Origin: Halorhodospira halophila
GTDB taxonomy: Bacteria; Pseudomonadota; Gammaproteobacteria; Nitrococcales; Halorhodospiraceae
Length of the DNA: 64,000 nucleotides
NCBI RefSeq assembly: GCF_016653405.1
Contig: NZ_NHSN01000032.1
Location: forward strand, 1-64,000
Reading direction: 5' to 3'
Within the stretch, counting starts at the first letter, position 1; every line of letters starts with the position of its first letter. Shown here one piece after another: positions 11,039 through 22,292 of the stretch. A program made the position numbers and the translations under genes. Under the pieces are notes generated by a model that was not told the origin of the DNA, ran no database searches, and saw nothing but the letters and a program-made list of their open reading frames with translations.

Positions 11039-13294
11039 TCAGACCATCTCTACCGGGTCCACATCCAGCGACCAGCGGACCTGGCGGGCCCCTTCCAGGC
11101 TGCCGAGCCCGCCGCTCCAACTCACCAGAAAACGCTGCAGATCGACCCGCCGCTCGGCGCGGATCATCAACTGCGCCCGGTGCCGACCCTCGCGCCGCTC
11201 CATGGGCGCCGGCACCGGGCCGAGCAGCTCCACCCCGCCGTCCGCGCCGACCCGGCTTCGACCATACTGGGCCGCCGACTCAAGGAAAAGGTACGGCGCG
11301 TCGGCATTCACCGACTCGGCACGCAAAAGAGCCAGCGCGGCGTAAGGCGGCAGGCCGGCGGCGTGGCGCTCGGCCAGGTGGGCCTCGGCGAAGGCGGGAT
11401 AGCCCCGCTCGAGCAGAACCCGCAGCAGCGGATGCTCCGGATGACGGGTCTGCAGCAGCACCTCGCCGGGCTGATCGCCGCGCCCGGCGCGGCCGGCCAC
11501 CTGCACCACAAGCTGCGCCAACCGCTCGGTGGCCCGGAAGTCTGCGCCGAACAGCCCCTGATCCACATCGATCACCGCCACCAGGGTCACCGCCGGCAGG
11601 TGGTGCCCCTTGGCCAGCATCTGCGTACCGATCAGCAACTGGGCGTCGCCCCGGTGAGCGGCCGCAAGATGGGCCTCGAGCTCGCCGCGGCGCCGGGTGG
11701 TGTCGCGGTCGATGCGCAGCTGCCCCACGCCGGGGAAGAGCTCCGTGAGCGCCTCCTCAAGGCGCTCGGTTCCGGGCCCCAGCGGGCGCAGATCCGCCGC
11801 ACCGCAATCCGGGCAGGCCGCCGGCAGGCGCGCGCTGTATCCGCAGTGGTGGCAGCGCAGCTGGCCGCGGCTGCGGTGGTAGGTCAGCCGCGCATCACAG
11901 CGGTGGCATTCGGCCACCCAGCCGCAGGCGTGGCAGGTAAGCACCGGGGCGTAGCCGCGCCGGTTGAGGAACAGCAGCGCCTGCGAGCCAGCGTCCAGGT
12001 GCCGGCGCAACGCCTCCTGCAGCGGTGCGGAAATCCCTCCAACCAGACGGCGGCTGCGGATATCGACCAGCTGCACGCTCGGGGCACGGGCCTCGCCCGC
12101 CCGATGCGGCAGGCGCAGGTGGGTGTAGCGACCGGCCCGCGCATTATGCAGAGACTCCAACGAGGGCGTAGCCGAGCCGAGCACGACCGGCACATCCAGG
12201 GTGCGGGCCCGCAGAACCGCCAGGTCCCGCGCCGAGTAGCGGAACCCCTCCTGCTGTGCCAACGAGGGGTCGTGCTCCTCGTCGACGACGATCAGCCCCG
12301 GACGCGGGAGCGGCGTGAAGATGGCCGAGCGGGTGCCGAGGATCACCGCCGCGTCGCCGTCCCGGGCGGCCAGCCAGGCCTCGGCGCGGTCGGCGCCGGA
12401 CAGCCCGGAGTGGAGCACCACCACCGAGCCGCGCAGGCGCTCGCGCAGGCGCTCAAGGAACTGCGGGGCGAGTCCGATCTCGGGGACCAGGATCAGCACC
12501 TGCCGCCCCGAAGCCAGCGCCCGGGCTGCGGCCTGCAGATAGACCTCGGTCTTACCGCTGCCGGTCACCCCCTCGAGCAGGAAGGCGGCGTACCCCTCGG
12601 TATCCAGGATCGCGGCCAGGGCGCGCTGCTGATCGGCGTCAAGCTCTGGCCCCGGGCGGGGCGCCGGCACCGTCTCGGCCCCGCGCTCGGCCGGGTGGTA
12701 CTCGCGATGGAGCAGGCCGGCCCGCTCCATGATGCGCCCGGCCCGCTGCCAGGCAGGCTGCTCCGCCACCAGCGTGGCACAGGGCGCGGCACCGCCGGCC
12801 TCCACCAGGCGGCGACGCAGCTCCGCCTGGCGCGGGGCCCGGCGCACCGGGGCATCATCCTCACGCGTCCGCTCGTCCAGGCGCCACCAGGCCACTGCCC
12901 GCCGTGCCGGGCGGCCCTGGCGCAGCGGGCCCGGCAGCCCGGTGGCCAGGGCTGTGCCCAGCGGGTAGCGGTAGTAGCGCGCCGCCCAGGTGAGCGTCTC
13001 CAGCAGTTCGGCGTCGAGCAGCGGCCGCTCATCCACCCAGGCGGTGGCGGCACGCAGCCTTGCTGCCGGCACCTCGGAGCCCCGGCACACCTCCACGACG
13101 ATGCCCACGGCGCGACTGCGGCCGAGCGGCACCTCGACCCGACAGCCGACGGGGTCATCCGGCCAGGCGCCGGACGGCGGGCGGTAATCCAGCGCCTCCT
13201 GCAGCGGGCGGGGCACCGCCACCCGCAGAACCGGCGGCAACCCCGCTGCACAGGGATGACCGGCGTCCGGGCGCGCGCTAGAGTCGTCAGCCAT
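11039..13294 (-). CDS. priA: Primosomal protein N' (replication restart helicase)
   Basis: 751 residues. The N-terminal 3' DNA-end-binding domain (VLRVAVPRPLQEALDY) is followed by a superfamily 2 helicase core: Walker A GVTGSGKTEVY (~242-252) and DEEH box VVDEEHDPSLAQQEG. An internal zinc module has four CxxC pairs (CHACGW, CHRCDA, CHHCGY, CPDCGA). It restarts replication at stalled forks. The ATG at 13294 overlaps the start codon of the divergent DnaJ-related gene (CATG). No ATG lies nearer the conserved N-terminus, so this start is preferred. Confidence 0.96.
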   Translation of the reverse strand: MADDSSARPDAGHPCAAGLPPVLRVAVPRPLQEALDYRPPSGAWPDDPVGCRVEVPLGRSRAVGIVVEVCRGSEVPAARLRAATAWVDERPLLDAELLETLTWAARYYRYPLGTALATGLPGPLRQGRPARRAVAWWRLDERTREDDAPVRRAPRQAELRRRLVEAGGAAPCATLVAEQPAWQRAGRIMERAGLLHREYHPAERGAETVPAPRPGPELDADQQRALAAILDTEGYAAFLLEGVTGSGKTEVYLQAAARALASGRQVLILVPEIGLAPQFLERLRERLRGSVVVLHSGLSGADRAEAWLAARDGDAAVILGTRSAIFTPLPRPGLIVVDEEHDPSLAQQEGFRYSARDLAVLRARTLDVPVVLGSATPSLESLHNARAGRYTHLRLPHRAGEARAPSVQLVDIRSRRLVGGISAPLQEALRRHLDAGSQALLFLNRRGYAPVLTCHACGWVAECHRCDARLTYHRSRGQLRCHHCGYSARLPAACPDCGAADLRPLGPGTERLEEALTELFPGVGQLRIDRDTTRRRGELEAHLAAAHRGDAQLLIGTQMLAKGHHLPAVTLVAVIDVDQGLFGADFRATERLAQLVVQVAGRAGRGDQPGEVLLQTRHPEHPLLRVLLERGYPAFAEAHLAERHAAGLPPYAALALLRAESVNADAPYLFLESAAQYGRSRVGADGGVELLGPVPAPMERREGRHRAQLMIRAERRVDLQRFLVSWSGGLGSLEGARQVRWSLDVDPVEMV

Positions 13295-13877
13295 GGAGCC
13301 GGAGACCGCCATCGCCGAGCTGCAGGCCGCCATCGAGCCCATCCTCCACGCCCATCCCGAGGGCGTGACCGAGATGACCCTGATGGACCGGCTCGCCGCC
13401 GACGGGCATCCGCTGTTCACGCGCGAGGGGCGCAGCGAGCCGGCGGCGCTCTACCGCGCCCACTTCCTGCTCTTCCACGCCCTCTACCGATTGCGCCCGG
13501 CACTGGCCGAGGCCGGCCTGGGGTTGGAGATCCACTGCCTGTGCATCCGGCTGCACCGGCTGCCCGGGCGCGCTGCGGCCGAGCGCGCGCTGATCGGCGC
13601 CGACCCGTTGGCCGCCTTCTACCTCGACCCGGGCAACCTGGAGGGCATGGACAACGCCGCGGTGGAGCAACTGATCGCCGACGGCCTGTGCCGGGCCCTG
13701 GGCGCGGGCGACCGGGCGGCGGACCTCGCCGAGCTGGGCCTCGCCCCGGGAGCCCCGCCGGCGGAGATCCGGCGCCGCTACCGGCGCCTGGCCATGCGTC
13801 ACCATCCGGACCGGGGCGGCGATACCGCGACCCTGCAGCGGATCAACGACGCCTACCAGCGCCTGATGGCCCGCTGA
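13293..13877 (+). CDS. DnaJ-related protein with C-terminal J domain
   Basis: 194 residues. The N-terminal ~110 residues match the 'DNA-J related' domain (winged-helix-like, LYRAHFLLFHALYRLRPAL). The C-terminal ~55 residues are a J domain: PPAEIRRRYRRLAMRHHPDRGGD with HPD at 171-173. J proteins stimulate Hsp70 ATPase. This family is common in gammaproteobacteria but its client is unknown. The start codon shares bases with that of priA on the other strand. Confidence 0.88.
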   Translation: MEPETAIAELQAAIEPILHAHPEGVTEMTLMDRLAADGHPLFTREGRSEPAALYRAHFLLFHALYRLRPALAEAGLGLEIHCLCIRLHRLPGRAAAERALIGADPLAAFYLDPGNLEGMDNAAVEQLIADGLCRALGAGDRAADLAELGLAPGAPPAEIRRRYRRLAMRHHPDRGGDTATLQRINDAYQRLMAR

Positions 13878-13905
13878 GACGCACCGCGGCGCCCGGTCCA
13901 TGGGA

Positions 13906-15351
13906 TCAGCCCCGCGCCGCCGGCCGCAGCCGGCCGCGCCCGCCGTCCGGCACCATGCGCCCGAAGTACAGGAAGCCCAGGGCCAGCCACGCGGTGGTGA
14001 TCACGGCCGCGAGGATCAGCACCGGGACCGGCCCGAACTGGTAGATCAGCGGCACCGATGCCGCGGTGAACAGCCCCCCGCCGACGATGGGCTCGAAGAG
14101 CAGCTGCTTGTAGCCGAAGCTCTCCAGGGCGCCGGAACGGTTGTTGGGGTCGGCCATGCGCATGAGCAGCACGCCGGTAACCGTCACGCCCATGGACTGA
14201 CCGAAGTCACCCACACCACGCTCGAACCAGTCGAAGGGGATGACGCGTGGAGCGATCACCACCAGCACGAACAACGACCAGGCGATGCCCGTTGCGGCCA
14301 ACAGCAGGAAGGGCACCAGATGCTCGCCGAGGGCGGTCAGCGACAGGGTGGCCAGGGCGGCGACAATGGTGAAGTCCAGCGCCGTGCCGGAGATCCGCGA
14401 CATGGTCCGCTCCGACACATATTCGGCATAGCCGGAGCGGATGATGAACACCTGCAGCAGCACGCCGCCGAGCATGGCCATCGGGAACAACGGCACGTGC
14501 TGGAGGATCTCCACCCCGCCGTCACGCGCCCAGGTGACCGCCTCGAGCCACTGCAGCGCCGAGAGCATCCCCCAGCCCAGCACCACGGCCAGGGCGACCA
14601 GGCCCAGGTGGACGGTGAGCGGATCGGTGGTCTGGCTCTCCTGCTGGCGGTCGCGGCGCAGGAGGTGGAGTTCACGGTCGCTGAAGCGCTCCTGGGCGCT
14701 ACCGGGCCCCTGGGCATTCTCCGGGTGATCGATGATCCCCCGACGCACCGCCAGGTTGATCAGGATGGTGCCGACCACGACGCCGCCGACCAGGCCTACG
14801 GTGGCCAGCCCTAGGGCCAGATCGGCCCCGGCGGGGAAGCCGAGATCCTCGAAGGTACCGGCCATGCCGGCGGCCGTGCCGTGGCCGCCCTCGAAGCCGA
14901 TCTCGATCAGCGCCCCGGCCATCGGACTCAGGCCGAAGACCGGCGTCAGCACCAGCAAAGCCAGCAGGATGCCCACCACGTACTGCCCCCACGCCATGGT
15001 CTGCCCGACCACGACCTGGGGGCCGGCGCGCAGCCAGATCTCGCGCAGCCCCGGCAGCGGCTTGCCGAGAAAGAGGGCGGCGAAGACGACGCTGATCAAC
15101 AATCCGGGGATGGCCGACCAGGTGTCGTAGACGTAGTCCGGGAACAGCCCCGCGCCGTCCTCGAAGGGGCTGCCGATGAACCGGCCCAGCACCTCCGGGC
15201 CGAGCAGCAGCGCCACGGCACCGGCGATGATCGACGCCGGCAGGAACAGCCGCCGCGCCCACAGCGTGTAGGCGCGCAGGACCGAGCTGGCCAGTACCAG
15301 CAGGCAGAGCACCAGGATGGCGATCAGGATCTCGGCAACAGCCATGGTCAC
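13906..15351 (-). CDS. GltS-family sodium/glutamate symporter-like protein
   Basis: 481 residues with about 11-12 hydrophobic helices in two halves. The first-half re-entrant loop signature EGGHGTAAGMAGTFEDLGFP and the VGLVGGVVVGTILINLAVRRG segment are typical of GltS (Na+:glutamate). The second half has DPNNRSGALESFGYKQL and GGGLFTAAS. A charged ~30-residue cytoplasmic linker (PGSAQERFSDRELHLLRRDR) joins the halves, making it longer than E. coli GltS (401). It follows the ATP-grasp ligase gene by 66 bases on the same strand with no clear promoter between. Substrate is inferred, not shown. Confidence 0.8.
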   Translation of the reverse strand: MTMAVAEILIAILVLCLLVLASSVLRAYTLWARRLFLPASIIAGAVALLLGPEVLGRFIGSPFEDGAGLFPDYVYDTWSAIPGLLISVVFAALFLGKPLPGLREIWLRAGPQVVVGQTMAWGQYVVGILLALLVLTPVFGLSPMAGALIEIGFEGGHGTAAGMAGTFEDLGFPAGADLALGLATVGLVGGVVVGTILINLAVRRGIIDHPENAQGPGSAQERFSDRELHLLRRDRQQESQTTDPLTVHLGLVALAVVLGWGMLSALQWLEAVTWARDGGVEILQHVPLFPMAMLGGVLLQVFIIRSGYAEYVSERTMSRISGTALDFTIVAALATLSLTALGEHLVPFLLLAATGIAWSLFVLVVIAPRVIPFDWFERGVGDFGQSMGVTVTGVLLMRMADPNNRSGALESFGYKQLLFEPIVGGGLFTAASVPLIYQFGPVPVLILAAVITTAWLALGFLYFGRMVPDGGRGRLRPAARG

Positions 15352-15417
15352 TCACCCCCAATGAACACGAGGCGCATCGTACTGGCGCTTCGGCCTTCGG
15401 GGCCAGAGGGCGTCGCC

Positions 15418-16377
15418 TCAGGTGCCGACGGCGAACTGCTCCATGGCCCAGCCGACGCGCGCCTCCGCGGTGGCGTGCCGGCTTTCCAGGGCCTCAATGG
15501 CCCCCAGGCGCGGCAGCAACCCGCAGCCGTTGGCGATCTGCACCGACAGGCCGGGGCGGGCGTTGAGTTCCAGCAGCTGCGGGCCCCGATCCCGGTCCAG
15601 AACCAGATCGGCCCCCAGGTAACCGAGGCCGCTCATCTCTTGGCACCGCGCGGCAAGCTCCAGCAGCGAGCGCCAATCGGGGATGTCGATGTCGTCGAGC
15701 GTCACCCCGGTGTCCGGGTGCTGGTAGACGCGCTGGTCGTACTGCACCGCGTGGGCACACCGGCCGGTAGCGATGTCCAGGCCAACGCCCACCGCCCCCT
15801 GGTGGAGGTTGGCCTTGCCCTGGGAGTCCTTGGTGGACAGGCGCAGCATGGCCATCACCGGATAGCCGAGGAAGACCAGGACGCGGATATCCGGGATGCC
15901 CTCGTAGGAGAGGGCCTCGAACCGGGGATCGAGGCGGATGCGATCCTCGAACACCGCGGTATCCGGCATGCCAGCCAGCGAGTGCAGCCCGGCCAGCGTG
16001 TTGGAGACGTGGCGCTGCAGATCCTCGAGCGAGAGCTCACGCTCGCCGCCGGTCAGGAAGCGGTCGCCGCGGCGCCCGGTCACCACCAGGATCCCCTTGC
16101 CGCCCGCCCCCTTGGCCGGCTTGATGACGAACTCGTCTACCCCCTGCAGGCGCCCGGCCAGATCGCGGACCTCGTGCTGGTGACGGATGGTGAAGCGCAG
16201 CGACGGGGTGCCGACCCCATGCTCCTCGGCCAGCAGCTTGGTGCGCAGCTTGTCGTCGACCAGCGGGTACAGCCGCCGGTCGTTGTATTGGCCGATGTAG
16301 TGGACATTGCGCCGGTTCATCCCGAGGATCCCCGCCTGCCGCAGGCGCCGGGCCGTGCGCCAGTGGCGGAGGATCAT
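15418..16377 (-). CDS. RimK-like ATP-grasp (alpha-L-glutamate ligase-like) protein
   Basis: 319 residues. ATP-grasp features are the ATP-lysine block DEFVIKPAKGAGGKGILVV (~105-123), EDRIRLDP, the IRVLVFLGYPVMAMLRLST strand pair and the Mg-binding block QLLELNARPGLSVQIANGCG near 280. The family forms amide bonds by acyl-phosphate chemistry; relatives add glutamate or other amino acids to proteins or peptides. It overlaps the inactive-transglutaminase gene by 4 bases (ATGA), a strong sign of co-translation. The RimB-like protease lies just upstream. The acceptor is unknown. Confidence 0.87.
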   Translation of the reverse strand: MILRHWRTARRLRQAGILGMNRRNVHYIGQYNDRRLYPLVDDKLRTKLLAEEHGVGTPSLRFTIRHQHEVRDLAGRLQGVDEFVIKPAKGAGGKGILVVTGRRGDRFLTGGERELSLEDLQRHVSNTLAGLHSLAGMPDTAVFEDRIRLDPRFEALSYEGIPDIRVLVFLGYPVMAMLRLSTKDSQGKANLHQGAVGVGLDIATGRCAHAVQYDQRVYQHPDTGVTLDDIDIPDWRSLLELAARCQEMSGLGYLGADLVLDRDRGPQLLELNARPGLSVQIANGCGLLPRLGAIEALESRHATAEARVGWAMEQFAVGT

Positions 16378-17891
16378 CCCGAGGCCTCCCGGAAGGCGCT
16401 GAAGCGCTTGAGCTCGACCAGCCGGTAGCCGGTGTACTGCCCCATGAGCATGATCAGCGCGACCACCACCAGATTCAGTTCGGGGAAGTTGAAGGTCAGG
16501 TGCTCGGCCAGCGGGCGGCTCATGAGCAGGTACGCGGCCAGCGCCACGACCAGACTGCCGGTGCCCTGGGTGAGCACCTCGCGGGCCCCCTCCTCCTCCC
16601 AGAGGATGGACATGCGCTCGATGGTCCAGGCGATGATGATGATCGGGAAAAAGGCCAGGGTCATGCCGGTGGCGAAGCCGAGCTGATAGCCGAGCAGGCT
16701 CATCAGGCCAATCATGAAGACCACGATCACGATCACGGTGGCGATCCGGGCCACCAGCAGCAGGTTGAGCCGCGATAGGTAGCCGCGCAGCAGCAGGCCC
16801 AGGGCGACGATGCCCACGAAGCTGATCAGCCCGGCGACCAGCTCTGTCTGCAGGAAGGCCAGGGCGATGAGCACCGGCATGAACGTCCCCGAGGTACGGA
16901 TGCCGACGATGATGCGCAGGAAGACGGTCACCAGCGCGCCCAGCGGGAGCAGCAGGAGCAGCTTGAAGGCGGTCTGCTGCTCGATGGGCAGCTGATGCAC
17001 GCTGAGCACGCTCATCACGCCACCCCCCTCCTCCATCCGCGCCAGCTGCTCGGCCGGCACGTTCTGGCGGTTCATGGAGAAGGCCACACGCGCGTTCTGC
17101 CCGCCGAAGAGATCGATGAGCGAGGCCCCGCCCCGGTGCCAGAGCAGCACATCGTCGTCGATGCCCTGCTGCCCGGTCACCGGGTTGAAGGGTAGCCAGT
17201 GGTCGTCGACGAAGATCTCCACCATCTGCACCGGCGTCTGGTTGCGCCGCCCGTCCTCCAACTCCAGGGCCAGCGAGGTGCGCGCCGGGACGCCGGCGTG
17301 GTGGAGCAGCCGCTCGATGACCACGGCGCGATCGTAGTTGTCGAGGAGCAGGTCAGCGGAACCGTCCCGGCCGGTCCCGAAGGCGTAGATCAGCTGGCGC
17401 GCCAGACTCTGCGGACTGGCGGAGGTCTCCTGGGCACGCTCAAGGATCTGCTCGGCGGCGGTCTCCTCCGCACCGGACCAGGTCGGCGAGGCCGGTTCAC
17501 CCGGTGCCTGGTCCACCGTCCGGTCGCGGTGGTCTGAGCCATCCGGGGTGGCGTGGACCTTGTAGTAGAGGGTCTGATCGCCCTCGGCCTCGGCGATGGT
17601 CCACTCGCCGCGGACCACGCCGTCCTGTTCGACGGTGGAGAAGCCGTAACCGGGGGAGGCGGTGTGCTCGAGCGAGAGTTCGAACCCCGGTGGACGGTCG
17701 GGGACGTTGAAACTGACCAGCACGGAGTCGCCCTGGGCCTCGAAGTCGATCCGCGCCTCGACCAGCCAGACCGGCTTCTGGGCACCGGGCAGGAACGGCA
17801 CGCCGGTGTCGATGTAGCGCCACGCCGCGGTAGCGGTCCCGACAACGATCAGCAGCGCCACCAGCGCGAAGAAGAGCCTCCGGGCCGTCAT
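16374..17891 (-). CDS. Inactive transglutaminase fused to seven-helix membrane domain
   Basis: 505 residues. An N-terminal anchor helix (~6-27) precedes a periplasmic region of ~270 residues. That region includes a transglutaminase-like fold (AGVPARTSLALELEDGRRNQTPVQMVEIFVDDHWLPFNPVTG) lacking the Cys expected before the helix that starts at AVVIERLLHHAG. Seven hydrophobic helices follow from ~305 (LLLLLPLGALVTVFLRIIV, through LLLRGYLSRLNLLLVARIATV, to VVVALIMLMGQYTGYRLV). This is the known gammaproteobacterial family encoded with an ATP-grasp ligase and a RimB-type protease. It is thought to bind peptide substrates in the periplasm, but its function is undetermined. Confidence 0.87.
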   Translation of the reverse strand: MTARRLFFALVALLIVVGTATAAWRYIDTGVPFLPGAQKPVWLVEARIDFEAQGDSVLVSFNVPDRPPGFELSLEHTASPGYGFSTVEQDGVVRGEWTIAEAEGDQTLYYKVHATPDGSDHRDRTVDQAPGEPASPTWSGAEETAAEQILERAQETSASPQSLARQLIYAFGTGRDGSADLLLDNYDRAVVIERLLHHAGVPARTSLALELEDGRRNQTPVQMVEIFVDDHWLPFNPVTGQQGIDDDVLLWHRGGASLIDLFGGQNARVAFSMNRQNVPAEQLARMEEGGGVMSVLSVHQLPIEQQTAFKLLLLLPLGALVTVFLRIIVGIRTSGTFMPVLIALAFLQTELVAGLISFVGIVALGLLLRGYLSRLNLLLVARIATVIVIVVFMIGLMSLLGYQLGFATGMTLAFFPIIIIAWTIERMSILWEEEGAREVLTQGTGSLVVALAAYLLMSRPLAEHLTFNFPELNLVVVALIMLMGQYTGYRLVELKRFSAFREASG

Positions 17892-17938
17892 GGTCGCTCC
17901 CCCGGCCCCCTCACGCAGTGGCGGGCCGCCCGGCCCGT

Positions 17939-18877
17939 CTACTCGTCCCCGTCATCGTCGTCCGCCTCCTGCTCGTCGCCATCCGTGTCGTTGTCTTGAT
18001 CGTCCTTGTCGTCATCGTCCCCGTCCTCCCCCGGATCCTCGTCGTCTTCCTCGACAATTTCCTCGACATGGTCATCGGCATCGATGGCGTCGAGATCCTC
18101 GTCATCCGGGGTCACGGGTTCGGTGGCACGCTTCAGGCCGACGTCGACCACCGCCACATCGCGCAGCACATCGCGGCCGATCAGTACCGGGTAGGTCAGG
18201 TGGCTGCGGTCGGTCAGGGTGAACTCGGCCGTCTCCGAGAACCGGCCGATGGTCACGTGCAACTCCACGACCGGCCGTGACTCCCGCCCGGAGGCCTGAA
18301 CGATGGTGGCGCTGCGCGCCTTGGGGCGCTCGATGGCGATCCGGCCATCGCCGTCCGGGTTGAGCATCTGGAAACGGACCCACGGCTCGCCATCCCGCTC
18401 GAATTCCTCGATCTCGCGGGCGTCCACCGACGAGGTGGAGGCACCGGTATCGATCCGGGCATCGAACAGCAGCCCCGGCGGATCCAGTTGCAGCTCCTCG
18501 ATCTCGCCAAAGACGAGCATGCCGTCGGCACTGAGCTCCTGACCCGGGCGCAACTGATCGTCGGGACAGGCCGGTTCGTCCGAGCACTCGGGGTCGCCCG
18601 GATCGACCGGGCGCAGCGGCACCAGCCAGCGGTTCGCCGTCTGCGCCTCCATGGCGCCGGCGATGCGCGCCAGCTGCGCCTCGCGCGCCAGCTCACGGGA
18701 TCGCTCCTGGGCCTCGGCCAGGGCCTCCAGACGCTCGTCGACGCTGTCGAAGCGCTGCTCGAAACGTTCCGTCTCGGCCTTCTCGATGAGCAGGTGATCC
18801 GGGGCCGTACAGCCGGCCAGCAACAGGGCGCCGCCCACCGCCAGCAGGGCGGCACGCGGCAGGTTGATCAGGGCCAT
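17939..18877 (-). CDS. RimB-like retropepsin-type protease, lipoprotein with acidic tail
   Basis: 313 residues. A lipoprotein signal ends in LLLAGC (Cys23). A charged coiled coil follows (~31-77, EKAETERFEQRFDSVDERLE), then the protease domain with the aspartyl-protease motif DARIDTGASTSSVDA (Asp143), SRPVVELHVTIG and YPVLIGRDVL. This is the family annotated 'ATP-dependent zinc protease'; its characterised member RimB is a retropepsin-like enzyme. Residues 256-313 are a low-complexity tail with about 36 Asp/Glu in 58 positions. The ATG at 18877 is chosen for the lipobox and overlaps the upstream gene by 10 bases. It is followed after 47 bases by the transglutaminase-7TM gene. Confidence 0.86.
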   Translation of the reverse strand: MALINLPRAALLAVGGALLLAGCTAPDHLLIEKAETERFEQRFDSVDERLEALAEAQERSRELAREAQLARIAGAMEAQTANRWLVPLRPVDPGDPECSDEPACPDDQLRPGQELSADGMLVFGEIEELQLDPPGLLFDARIDTGASTSSVDAREIEEFERDGEPWVRFQMLNPDGDGRIAIERPKARSATIVQASGRESRPVVELHVTIGRFSETAEFTLTDRSHLTYPVLIGRDVLRDVAVVDVGLKRATEPVTPDDEDLDAIDADDHVEEIVEEDDEDPGEDGDDDDKDDQDNDTDGDEQEADDDDGDE

Positions 18878-19425
18878 ACCCGTCGGACCTCTTCCGTCGC
18901 AGTTTCGTTCCCGAGCCCCTCGCACGCCTCGCAGAGGATCCGCGCGATGGCCGAAACCGCCTCCGGGTCGCAGGTCGGGCACTTGCGTCGTACGACCACG
19001 CCGGCATTCCACGCGGCGTCGCGCCAGCGCTCGCCCTCCGGGGCGGCGGGAAGGTCCGTGGGCAGGTCTTGCAGGAAAAGCTTCTGCTCAATCGCCTCGG
19101 CGCGGAGCTCGGCGGCGATCAGCTGCTTGCGAAGCTCGTGGTTGTCATCCGCCAGATCGCGGGGCGGATGCAGCTTGAGGTGGCGCCGCAGGGCCCGGAG
19201 CGGGTCGATGACCTCTCGATCCCACTCCTGGCCCCGGCGGATGGCACCTTCGGCACTGGAGACCCCGAGCCGCCCCCGCCCCTGCAGACCGCTCCAGACG
19301 GCGGCCAGCAGGAGCGAAATGGACAGCCCGTAGCGGGCCTGAAGCTTGAGGCAGGCGGCTTCGACGCCCGGCCTGGCGTAGATATCCTCGGCGAAGCGCC
19401 AAAGCCGCTCGGACTCATCCAGCAA
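18868..19425 (-). CDS. TIGR02444 (DUF2390) family protein
   Basis: 185 residues if started at the TTG at 19425, which has a perfect GGAGG ribosome site 7 bases upstream and places SERLWRFAEDIYARPGVEAACLKLQ at the N-terminus, as in TIGR02444 proteins. There is no ATG or GTG in this position; an ATG at 19584 would lie inside pntB and add unrelated residues. The rest is helical (SLLLAAVWSGL; HELRKQLIAAELRAEAIEQ) and ends with a Cys-containing stretch (CPTCDPEA, CEACEG). Function unknown. It sits between pntB (34-base gap) and the RimB-like gene (10-base overlap). Confidence 0.8.
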   Translation of the reverse strand: MLDESERLWRFAEDIYARPGVEAACLKLQARYGLSISLLLAAVWSGLQGRGRLGVSSAEGAIRRGQEWDREVIDPLRALRRHLKLHPPRDLADDNHELRKQLIAAELRAEAIEQKLFLQDLPTDLPAAPEGERWRDAAWNAGVVVRRKCPTCDPEAVSAIARILCEACEGLGNETATEEVRRVWP

Positions 19426-19459
19426 ACCCGTTGCCTCCAGCAGACCGGCCGCAGCCGGC

Positions 19460-20854
19460 TTACATACCCTTGACGGTCTGGACCATTTCGGAGACGACCT
19501 TCTGGGCGTCGCCGAAGACCATGCGGGTATTGTCGCGGAAGAACAGCTTGTTCTCCACACCGGAGAAGCCGGCCCCGCGACCACGCTTGACCACGAGAAC
19601 CTGGTCGGCGTAGTCCACGTTGAGGATCGGCATGCCGTAGATGGCGCTGCCCTCGTCCTCCCGGGCGGCCGGGTTGACCACGTCGTTGGCGCCGATGATC
19701 AGCACCACGTCGGTGTCCTCGAACTCCTCGTTGATCTCATCCATGTCGTAGATCATGTCGTAGGGCACGCCGGCCTCGGCGAGGAGCACGTTCATGTGGC
19801 CCGGCATGCGGCCGGCCACCGGGTGGATGGCGAACTTGACGTCCACGTCGTGCTTTTGCAGCAGCTCGACCATCTCCCAGAGCTTATGCTGGGCCTGCGC
19901 CACGGCCAGGCCATAGCCCGGGACGATGATCACCCGGTCGGCGTACCCCATCATGTAGGCGCCGTCGGCGGGACCGACCTCCTTCATCTCGCCCTCGGCC
20001 TCCGACTCGGCGGCGGCCGGGGCGGCACCGAAGCCGCTGAACAGGATGTTCAGCAGCGAACGGTTCATGGCCTTGGCCATGAGCAGGGTCAGCAGCATGC
20101 CGGCGGCGCCCACCACCGTACCGGCGATGATCAGCGCCAGGTTGCCCAGGACGTACCCCTTGAAGCCCACGGCCAGGCCGGTCAGGGCGTTGAACAGGGA
20201 GATGACCACGGGCATGTCGGCACCGCCGATGGGCACGGTGATGAAGATGCCCAGCGCCAGTGCGGCGATGAAGAACAGCAGGATCGGGAAGCCGGAGCCG
20301 GTATTGAACACCCAGATCGCCAGCAGCAGGGTCGCCGCGGCCAGAGCCACGTTCCACCACTGGTGGTTCTCGACCAGGGTCGACTTCTTCAGGCGATCAT
20401 CCAGCTTGGCCCAGGCGATCATGGAGCCGGAGAAGGCCACCGAGCCGATCACCGCACCGAGCAGGCCGAGTGCCGCCGCGTCGGAGCCCATGGCCGCGGC
20501 CACCGAGCCCTCGTCCGCTCGCGCGCCCTGGAGCAGGGAGACCGCGGCGATGGCACCGGCGGAACCGCCACCGAGGCCGTTGTAGACCGCCACCATCTGC
20601 GGCATCTCGGTCATCTGCACCTTGAGCGCCGTGTACCAGGCGAAGGCGCCGCCAAGGACGATGGCGATTAGGATCAGGGAGATGTTCTCCATCCCCACGC
20701 TCGGGTGGGCGAAGGTGGCCACCGTGGCCACGACCATGCCGACACCGGCCCACATCACGCCCTTGCGCGCCGTCACCGGCGAGCTCATGGCCTTCAGGCC
20801 GAAGATGAACAGGATGGAGGCGACGAAGTAACTGAGTTGGACTACGACACTCAT
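19460..20854 (-). CDS. pntB: NAD(P) transhydrogenase subunit beta
   Basis: 464 residues, standard. About nine transmembrane helices cover residues 1-260, including the conserved GGADMPVVISLFNALTG block. The C-terminal NADP(H)-binding domain III shows IIVPGYGLAVAQAQHKLWEM, FAIHPVAGRMPGHMNVLLAEAGVPYD, VLIIGANDVVNPAA and VVKRGRGAGFSGVENKLFF. It couples hydride transfer from NADH to NADP+ with proton re-entry, supplying NADPH. Third gene of pntAA-pntAB-pntB, spaced 2 bases from pntAB. Confidence 0.97.
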   Translation of the reverse strand: MSVVVQLSYFVASILFIFGLKAMSSPVTARKGVMWAGVGMVVATVATFAHPSVGMENISLILIAIVLGGAFAWYTALKVQMTEMPQMVAVYNGLGGGSAGAIAAVSLLQGARADEGSVAAAMGSDAAALGLLGAVIGSVAFSGSMIAWAKLDDRLKKSTLVENHQWWNVALAAATLLLAIWVFNTGSGFPILLFFIAALALGIFITVPIGGADMPVVISLFNALTGLAVGFKGYVLGNLALIIAGTVVGAAGMLLTLLMAKAMNRSLLNILFSGFGAAPAAAESEAEGEMKEVGPADGAYMMGYADRVIIVPGYGLAVAQAQHKLWEMVELLQKHDVDVKFAIHPVAGRMPGHMNVLLAEAGVPYDMIYDMDEINEEFEDTDVVLIIGANDVVNPAAREDEGSAIYGMPILNVDYADQVLVVKRGRGAGFSGVENKLFFRDNTRMVFGDAQKVVSEMVQTVKGM

Positions 20855-20856
20855 GT

Positions 20857-21156
20857 TCAGCCGTCCTCCTTCTTACTGCTCTTGAACATATCGAGCATCC
20901 GCTCGGTGACGACGTAGCCGCCGACGGCGTTGGCAGCGCCGAGCAGCACGGCGACAAAGCCGATGGCCTGCTCCAGCGGCGTCTCGGCGACGCCGAGGGC
21001 GACCATGGCGCCGACGACGACGATGCCGTGGATGAAGTTCGAGCCGGACATCAGCGGCGTGTGCAGGATGACCGGCACCCGGGTGATGACCTCGTAACCG
21101 GCCACCGCTGCGAGCATGAAGACATAGAGTGCGACGAGCCCGCCGACCTCGATCAT
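20857..21156 (-). CDS. pntAB: NAD(P) transhydrogenase subunit alpha, membrane part
   Basis: 99 residues with three hydrophobic helices (LVALYVFMLAAVAGYEVI; GSNFIHGIVVVGAMVALGV; GFVAVLLGAANAVGGYVVTERML). This is the domain that forms the C-terminal end of PntA in E. coli but is a separate polypeptide in the split-alpha type known from Rhodospirillum. It overlaps the pntAA stop by 4 bases (ATGA). Confidence 0.93.
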   Translation of the reverse strand: MIEVGGLVALYVFMLAAVAGYEVITRVPVILHTPLMSGSNFIHGIVVVGAMVALGVAETPLEQAIGFVAVLLGAANAVGGYVVTERMLDMFKSSKKEDG

Positions 21157-22292
21157 GACTTACCTCCTTCCAGGCGCTCCCGGGTGGCCCCGTGGCGAAC
21201 CTGGCCGTCGTGGGTCAGACAGGTATCCGCGATCACCTGGTCGTCCCAGTTGAGAGTCAGGTCACCATCCTGAACCATCAGCGTCAGCAGGTTGTACAGG
21301 TTCTTGCTGTACATCTCGCTGGTGTGGACGGCGACGCTGGCGGGGAGATTCTTCGGCCCGACCACCAGAACCCCGTTGTGGGTGACGTCCTTGCCGGCCT
21401 TGGTGACCTCGCAGTTGCCGCCGGTCTCGGCGGCCATGTCGACAATCACCGTGCCACCGCCCATGCGCTCGACCGTCGCCTTGTCGATGATCTTCGGCGC
21501 CGGGCGGCCCGGGATGGCGGCCGTGGTCACCACCACATGGGCGTTGGCGACATGGTTGGCCAGCACCTCGGCCTGCTGTTGCTGCTCCTCGGCGGTGAGC
21601 TCGCGGGCATAGCCGCCCTCGCCCACGGCCGAGACCCCGGTGTCGATGAACTTGGCACCGAGCGACTCGACCTGTTCCTTGGTCTCGGGGCGCACGTCGT
21701 AGCCCTCGACCTGGGCGCCGAGGCGGCGGCAGGTGGCAATGGCCTGCAGGCCAGCCACACCGGCACCGACCACCACGGCCTTGGCCGGACGGATGGTCCC
21801 GGCGGCGGTGGTGAGCATCGGGAAGAAACGCGGGGAACGCTCGGCGGCGATCAGCGCGGCCTTATAGCCGGCGGCAGCCGCCTGGGAGGAGAGGGCGTCG
21901 ATGGACTGGGCCCGGGTGATCCGCGGGACGAGCTCCATAGCGAAGGAGGTGACCTTCCGCTTGCACAGCGTCTGGATCCGCTCGTCGCCCTCGTGGGGCG
22001 TCAGGAAGCTGATGAGCACCGCTCCTTCCTTCACCTGGCCGGTCTCCTTGACGCTCAGCGGCTGCACGCTGAGCAGGACATCGGCCTCCTTGAGCAGCTC
22101 GTCACGGGACTGGACGATGCGAACACCGCCGGCTTCGTAATCGGCATCATCGAACCCGGCGCCCTCACCCGCTCCCGTCTCCAGGAGCAGCTCGACGCCG
22201 AGTTTGCCGAACTGCTTCAGGACCCCAGGGACGAGCGCGACACGCCGCTCGCCGGGCCGGGTCTCCTTCGGCACGGCAACCTTGATGGCCAT
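21153..22292 (-). CDS. pntAA: NAD(P) transhydrogenase subunit alpha, NAD-binding part
   Basis: 379 residues. It is the peripheral NAD(H)-binding domain I, related to alanine dehydrogenase. The N-terminus KVAVPKETRPGERRVALVPGVLKQFGKLG, the block AKAVVVGAGVAGLQAIATCRRLGA and VVTTAAIPGRPAPKII are diagnostic. It ends before the membrane helices, which are carried by pntAB, giving a three-subunit enzyme. The upstream 260 bases separate it from the divergent HNH gene. The ribosome site is GGGGGATC, 5 bases before the ATG. Confidence 0.96.
   Translation of the reverse strand: MAIKVAVPKETRPGERRVALVPGVLKQFGKLGVELLLETGAGEGAGFDDADYEAGGVRIVQSRDELLKEADVLLSVQPLSVKETGQVKEGAVLISFLTPHEGDERIQTLCKRKVTSFAMELVPRITRAQSIDALSSQAAAAGYKAALIAAERSPRFFPMLTTAAGTIRPAKAVVVGAGVAGLQAIATCRRLGAQVEGYDVRPETKEQVESLGAKFIDTGVSAVGEGGYARELTAEEQQQQAEVLANHVANAHVVVTTAAIPGRPAPKIIDKATVERMGGGTVIVDMAAETGGNCEVTKAGKDVTHNGVLVVGPKNLPASVAVHTSEMYSKNLYNLLTLMVQDGDLTLNWDDQVIADTCLTHDGQVRHGATRERLEGGKS

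Follow-up and report, generated by a model that had tools for sequence, protein, structure and literature searches.

Two described systems pair a retropepsin-like protease with an ATP-grasp ligase of the RimK type. The RimB-RimK pair is cytoplasmic and modifies ribosomal protein S6. The second, the rlo operon, was characterised in Pseudomonas aeruginosa in 2025. Its products are RloA, a retropepsin-like protease that is secreted; RloB, a seven-transmembrane (7TM) protein with an inactive transglutaminase domain; and RloC, an ATP-grasp protein resembling RimK. Genetics place the three in one pathway (PMC12239564). Three RloA proteases are redundantly required in P. aeruginosa under hypo-osmotic stress; in the mutant that lacks all three, loss of rloB or rloC brings back hypo-osmotic growth in full and relieves the other defects in part (PMC12239564). 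In vitro, RloA cuts a reporter whose run of consecutive glutamates is 8 or 10 residues long and leaves one with 6 or fewer uncut (PMC12239564). In another bacterium, disruption of a gene annotated as such an inactive transglutaminase is reported to alter vesicle production (PMC12096838). Here we analyse a 64,000-nucleotide stretch of the Halorhodospira halophila genome (contig NZ_NHSN01000032.1, positions 1 to 64,000; the window), in which three minus-strand genes form an rlo operon and are followed by a gene for a GltS-family (ESS) membrane transporter. Comparison with relatives suggests that the transporter is a neighbour of rlo rather than a working part of it.

The first gene of the trio, rloA (17939 to 18877, 312 residues), encodes a predicted lipoprotein. 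Its lipobox (LAGC) has the Cys at residue 23; some 95 residues further on comes a retropepsin-like domain with a DTG motif (18128 to 18514 in the genome profile search; PF05618, 120 bits), and the protein ends in an acidic C-terminal tail (17942 to 18109). A phmmer search matches it to 9g58 (75 bits) and 9g59 (69 bits), the RloA structures deposited by the authors of the P. aeruginosa study (Lormand et al., PMC12239564). The second gene, rloB (16374 to 17891, 505 residues), encodes an inactive transglutaminase domain (PF14400, 171 bits) followed by a seven-helix domain (PF14402, 340 bits). Cysteine never exceeds 30% in any column of 64 aligned RloB sequences, which agrees with an inactive transglutaminase domain. 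The third, rloC (15418 to 16377, 319 residues), encodes a RimK-related ATP-grasp protein that is over cut-off for PF14397 (291 bits) and TIGR02291 (424 bits against a cut-off of 314). A gap of 47 bases separates rloA from rloB, rloB and rloC overlap by 4 bases, and 66 bases lie between rloC and the transporter gene; for these spacings, and for the four frames, their strand and their order, the preliminary description of the locus was exact.

The sequence features of an rlo operon are all present: a DTG retropepsin, an inactive transglutaminase domain with seven helices, an ATP-grasp RloC and a tight A-B-C order. The preliminary description had called the trio known but poorly understood; it is indeed known, but it has since been named, with structures of its protease and mutant phenotypes described, and its treatment as a single system agrees with the P. 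aeruginosa genetics (PMC12239564). The protein families, the gene order and the secreted protease are shared with P. aeruginosa. The H. halophila operon differs in its RloA, which is predicted to be a lipoprotein and carries additional N-terminal residues as well as the acidic tail, in that the genome has one PF05618 gene besides rimB where P. aeruginosa has three RloA proteases, and in the GltS-family gene 3′ of the trio.

The same arrangement recurs elsewhere. PF14400 matches, a few of them weak, were found in 75 of the 370 genomes of the class that were at least 90% complete. We collected 64 rlo loci, from 15 of the 26 PF14400-positive genomes of the order, 40 of the 75 from the class sample and 9 of 42 genomes behind transporter loci, some of these stretches ending early at contig ends. 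The rloA gene lies immediately 5′ of rloB in 56 of the 64 and rloC follows rloB in 63. One Halomonas-type locus (L180, G059:C1:2469000-2479500) holds a broken operon, with rloB in two frames and rloC in three, reflecting either decay or sequencing errors.

If the transporter were a fourth member of rlo, the two should stay together in relatives. Among 54 genomes of the order, PF14400 occurs in 26 and a transporter match in 12, one of which (in G009) is a fragment. Five of these genomes outside the genus hold both rlo and the transporter, on separate contigs every time, and one member of the same family (G001, 99% complete) has rlo and no transporter. The class sample yielded seven transporter matches, four of them near full-length (one, in G413, with its frame broken near the end); all four of those genomes have rlo, and the two are adjacent in the window's own genome only. 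A scan of contigs, which queried short stretches of the window's transporter and so favours close relatives, returned 51 transporter loci, by record title mainly from Halomonas, Vreelandella and Billgrantia, with some from Ectothiorhodospiraceae, Aquisalimonas and Alkalilimnicola and a few from metagenome-assembled genomes of other phyla. Two of these, L067 and L077, belong to genomes of the genus (G006 and G007), and L083 is a fragment. None of the other 48 loci contains a match to rloA, rloB or rloC, and 43 of them have 3 kb or more of sequence on either side. PF14400 is nonetheless encoded in 42 of the 45 genomes behind such loci (a count that excludes the genomes of L033, L067, L068, L071, L077 and L083). 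Halomonas-type loci share a neighbourhood of their own, with a glycosyltransferase-like and a phosphatase-like gene (named by eye) 5′ of the transporter, and Billgrantia-type loci share a different one. In the remaining lineages outside the genus, clustering of neighbours found no common neighbour. Across all these loci, inspection by eye showed no evident glutamate-related gene.

We also asked whether rlo and the transporter occur in the same genomes more often than expected. Within the order, rlo is present in 10 of 12 transporter-positive genomes against 16 of 42 transporter-negative ones (p = 0.008). Without one family that is poor in rlo, the figures are 10 of 12 and 13 of 19 (p = 0.43), and we therefore rejected the co-occurrence as evidence of partnership, since it is driven by lineage. 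We likewise rejected the idea that rlo has the transporter as a conserved fourth component, because the linkage fails outside the genus.

Within the genus, represented by nine genomes, the picture is different. In five of them (G000, which is the window's own, G002, G004, G006 and G007), rloABC is followed by the transporter gene, at distances of 66, −4 (an overlap), 74, 75 and 60 bases, respectively, and the transporters of the four other genomes are 79–94% identical to that of the window. In G003, a single contig, remnants of rloABC (about residues 7–57 of RloA, 204–273 of RloB and 251–316 of RloC) lie beside an intact transporter gene (78% identity) between a DUF2390 gene and a DnaJ-related gene. 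The dN/dS of this transporter is 0.06–0.10 against four congeners and L033, with dS saturated, and 0.07–0.19 for the other pairs; it is under purifying selection despite the ruined trio. At the same locus, G009 (77% complete) retains the end of RloC and two transporter pieces, the shorter of which (E = 1.5e-5) is only slightly better than the best match to shuffled sequence (4.2e-5). In G005 (94% complete), only the first 28 residues of the transporter stand out (E = 3.6e-7), a weak RloA match (E = 0.015) being discarded as chance-level, and the search for remnants at the G008 locus (83% complete) yielded nothing. The control for these searches was simple base shuffling, in which 100 shuffles of five stretches gave 179 matches with E ≤ 0.05, 12 below 1e-3, one below 1e-4 (that of 4.2e-5) and none below 1e-5. 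PF14400 was not found elsewhere in G003, G005, G008 or G009; RloA and RloC were not sought genome-wide there.

In the four congeners that lack a working trio, the locus never retains one or two rlo genes whole, and such joint loss of three genes is as expected if they serve one pathway. The loci concerned (L088, L194, L195 and L196), bounded by DUF2390 on one side and by the DnaJ-related gene or priA on the other, show decay or loss of the cassette at a different stage in each of the four congeners. In G010, of the same family, the DUF2390 and DnaJ-related genes lie about 100 bases apart and the cassette is absent.

Transporter and trio belong to a longer run of genes on the minus strand. At its head are the pyridine nucleotide transhydrogenase genes pntA1, pntA2 and pntB (19460 to 22292), which nearly abut one another and match NCBIfam transhydrogenase models, although pntA1 alone passes its cut-off (386, over 383; pntB scores 425 of 689 and pntA2 86 of 383). 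They are followed by the DUF2390/TIGR02444 gene (18868 to 19461; PF09523, 101 bits; TIGR02444, 88 bits), which overlaps the start of rloA by 10 bases and whose exact start is uncertain. The transporter gene (13906 to 15351, 481 residues) comes last, and the convergent DnaJ-related gene on the plus strand (13293 to 13877; PF12339 and PF00226) forms the downstream border. This order, pntA1-pntA2-pntB-DUF2390-rloABC-transporter, is maintained in the genus. Since the transporter is the final gene of an eight-gene run, its position is as informative about pnt as about rlo.

The transporter may begin at a GTG at 15351 or, more likely, at an ATG at 15345, the start used by its congeneric orthologues, which would widen the gap behind rloC from 66 to 72 bases. 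We detected no consensus promoter or terminator in that gap (15352 to 15417). The preliminary description had seen no evident promoter there, and none was found: a scan of 13700 to 19700 gave no sigma-70-like match, but with only 0.2 expected by chance this is uninformative, and we rejected the scan as evidence because the expected number of sites is too low. From the layout it is plausible that the transporter is co-transcribed with rlo inside the genus, and it is probably co-transcribed yet functionally independent.

What kind of protein is the transporter? It scores 50.5 bits against PF03616 in the genome profile search (cut-off 26) and is the single PF03616 match in the genome. With hmmscan, the orthologues L085 and L068 score 54.4 and 58.7 bits against this family, and E. 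coli GltS scores 548 bits; hmmscan returned nothing for the window transporter, perhaps through an effect of its filters, and nothing for the distant relative L093. Annotation pipelines may overlook this transporter family, as hmmscan misses a match that the genome profile search puts over cut-off. An hhalign comparison with E. coli GltS gives a probability of 95% at 27% identity, and the two share a GGHGT loop, but the second conserved motif differs and the proteins have about 480 and 401 residues, respectively. Sequence searches against the PDB led no further: phmmer returned no match for the transporter, its profile found a single weak unrelated match, and E. coli GltS had no sequence match in the same PDB copy. 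No NCBIfam model matches the transporter.

The AlphaFold2 (AF2) model of the transporter (pLDDT 86, pTM 0.85) resembles CitS (Z 21.2, rmsd 4.4 over 363 residues) and AspT (Z 20.8), and Foldseek's own best matches are also to CitS (E = 3e-4), with TM-scores of 0.32–0.57, mostly below 0.5. Like the sodium-glutamate symporters of the GltS/ESS family (PF03616, TCDB 2.A.27) and CitS, the protein thus combines a PF03616 match and a GGHGT loop with a predicted CitS-type fold. The label of GltS-family symporter is correct at the family level and goes no further, as this is a distant member. A parallel is offered by the TAXI-GltS transporters, in which a GltS-family carrier is also translationally coupled to the gene of an envelope protein (here rloC, in G002); they differ in that the partner there is a glutamate-binding TAXI protein (PMC12344293).

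RloC resembles RimK in fold. Its AF2 model (pLDDT 92) finds RimK as top match (Z 16.4, rmsd 3.1 over 210 residues), tied with ArgX and close to other ATP-grasp ligases. RloC is over the cut-off of the Pfam RimK domain (PF08443, 33.8 bits against 21), the best stretch covering only residues 239–278, and falls far below that of the RimK family model TIGR00768 (38 bits against 143). The N-terminal domain of RimK (PF18030) has no match in RloC, whereas the RimK of the same genome matches at 156 bits; correspondingly, the ATP-grasp entry motif lies at residue 41 in RloC and at residue 98 in that RimK. A report on P. aeruginosa RimK places the final glutamate of the bound chain in contact with Arg189 and Asn262 and the remaining chain in contact with residues 7, 8, 14, 64 and 68 (PMC10092738). 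In weak alignments to P. syringae RimK (7qys), and assuming that the numbering holds, Arg165 and Asn272 of RloC align with the first two of these residues. Both are invariant in 30 of 30 aligned RloC sequences, although residues of this kind may be general to ATP-grasp ligases. RloC can thus plausibly ligate an amino acid.

How might the operon work? In the reading that we consider likely, RloC would act in the cytoplasm as an ATP-grasp ligase that synthesises or attaches an acidic peptide, one rich in glutamate should the published hints prove right. RloB, which combines seven helices with a non-catalytic transglutaminase domain in the periplasm, may be needed to bring this product to the envelope or to fix it there. 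RloA, a lipoprotein retropepsin, would trim it, because RloB and RloC left unchecked damage the cell when osmolarity is low. We infer the part of RloB in delivery, the reaction of RloC and a like working in Halorhodospira. The transporter would be an independent neighbour in the same gene run, a GltS-family carrier acting on its own, with the sodium coupling and elevator mechanism expected of its family.

Several points weigh against this reading. The NCBIfam RloB model NF052267 scores 333 against a cut-off of 900, and all RloA models are under cut-off (RloA3, 117 of 210; RloA2, 94 of 250; RloA1, 92 of 280); the RloB, RloA1 and RloA2 models are of the 'exception' type and the RloA3 model is not. 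Seven of the 64 rlo loci (L098-L101, L103, L157 and L167) have rloB and rloC with no rloA match within the fetched stretch. The RimK residues that hold most of the poly-glutamate chain belong to the N-terminal domain that RloC lacks, and since RloC lacks that domain, glutamate chemistry itself is unproven. All five rlo operons found within the genus come with the transporter, and three genomes have lost both at the locus, which leaves room for rlo to depend on the transporter there without the reverse being true. The gap between trio and transporter is also short, closing to a 4-base overlap in G002. As to the seven loci without rloA, the protease may be encoded elsewhere in the genome.

An alternative that we regard as unlikely is that rlo and the transporter share a theme and no chemistry, both serving adaptation to salt or osmotic stress under one osmotically controlled promoter for the gene run. 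It would fit the failure of P. aeruginosa lacking RloA proteases under hypo-osmotic stress (PMC12239564), the presence of the pnt genes in the run, and the origin of most transporter loci in Halomonas, Vreelandella, Billgrantia and Ectothiorhodospiraceae. However, the bias of the locus scan towards close relatives of the window bears on this last point, and rlo and the transporter lie apart in genomes of other halophile genera.

It is improbable that the four genes form one functional unit in the genus, with glutamate consumed by RloC, released in the periplasm by RloA and taken up again through the transporter. The preliminary description had proposed that the transporter supplies or reclaims glutamate and completes a full cycle, and had set this on the adjacency of gltS and trio in relatives. 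That adjacency, when checked, held in five of nine genus genomes and in none outside; absence from close relatives is what the description itself had named as refuting the idea, and the cycle finds no support in the gene linkage of relatives. For such a cycle speak the adjacency in all rlo-positive congeners with the overlap in G002, the family membership of the transporter, distant though it is, as the only PF03616 protein of the genome, and the cleavage of poly-glutamate by RloA in vitro (PMC12239564). But G003 keeps the transporter without rlo and G001 keeps rlo without the transporter, the 48 loci outside the genus show no linkage, the co-occurrence dissolves without one rlo-poor family, and a protease that cuts runs of 8 or 10 glutamates and spares those of 6 or fewer by itself releases no single glutamate.

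The acidic tail of RloA deserves attention in its own right. In the window it has 56 residues, 36 of them Asp or Glu and one Lys or Arg; 32 of the last 50 residues of the protein are acidic, and no more than 12 are in any of the window's 42 other crude gene calls. Taking as tail everything beyond 20 residues past the last G-R/H motif of the RloA domain, and leaving out two RloA proteins without the motif, we found tails of 43–59 residues, 53–68% Asp or Glu, in the five rlo-positive genus genomes (the window and L084-L087), similar in charge and not in exact sequence. Eight Halomonas-type genomes have tails of 23–28 residues with 8–11 acidic ones, L096 (G012) has 12 acidic residues of 23, and the other measured loci, most of which lack such a tail, have 0–7. 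A protease with a basic poly-glutamate channel that bears its own acidic tail is suggestive, although proteins of halophiles are often acidic. For H. halophila itself, an acidic proteome is reported (PMC7042295). That the tail is a built-in pseudo-substrate, bound to or released from RloA's basic glutamate-binding channel by ionic strength, with the carrier recruited to reclaim acidic fragments so that rlo depends on the carrier and not the reverse, seems to us very doubtful.

A different gene recurs beside rlo in other lineages. In 5 of the 63 rlo loci with a sound rloC, from four families, a gene for an AstE/AspA-type protein (PF24827, 139–148 bits) lies 3′ of rloC at −4 to 16 bases (L144:2735-4027, L145:3204-4544, L152:3191-4573, L164:6428-7855 and L169:3273-4574). 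A sixth lies on the opposite strand, beside rloA (L175:7541-8755; PF24827), and the fetched rlo loci hold no further PF24827 match. The five proteins encoded behind rloC are of a metallopeptidase type and, by eye, have a signal-peptide-like start. Other genes too sit close behind rloC, each in single loci. In the H. halophila genome, RimB, RimK and an AstE/AspA-type gene stand in a row (L186, G000:C4:48000-56000), the RimB there scoring 137 of 200 with the NCBIfam RimB model, below cut-off. That pair resembles rlo in having a retropepsin and an ATP-grasp ligase in succession, and differs in being cytoplasmic, in lacking RloB and in the RimK N-terminal domain and TIGR00768 score that RloC does not share. 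Since rim and rlo have in common a ligase, a retropepsin and this partner, the comparison suggests that the AstE/AspA-type enzyme may trim the same kind of chain in both. Among the papers listed by our literature searches, none joins such an enzyme to rlo or to RimB-RimK, and neither 'desuccinylase' nor 'carboxypeptidase' occurs in the main text of the rlo paper (PMC12239564).

What remains of interest at this locus, then, is the natural loss of rlo, the AstE/AspA-type partner and the acidic tail. For the missing trimming step, the AstE/AspA-type peptidase is a better lead than the transporter. The genus also supplies natural mutants of an envelope system that was named only recently: five genomes have rlo, and in four others, three of them incomplete, the trio is gone or ruined at the locus, one of the four keeping the transporter. 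Differences in envelope chemistry among relatives as close as these could show the product of rlo.

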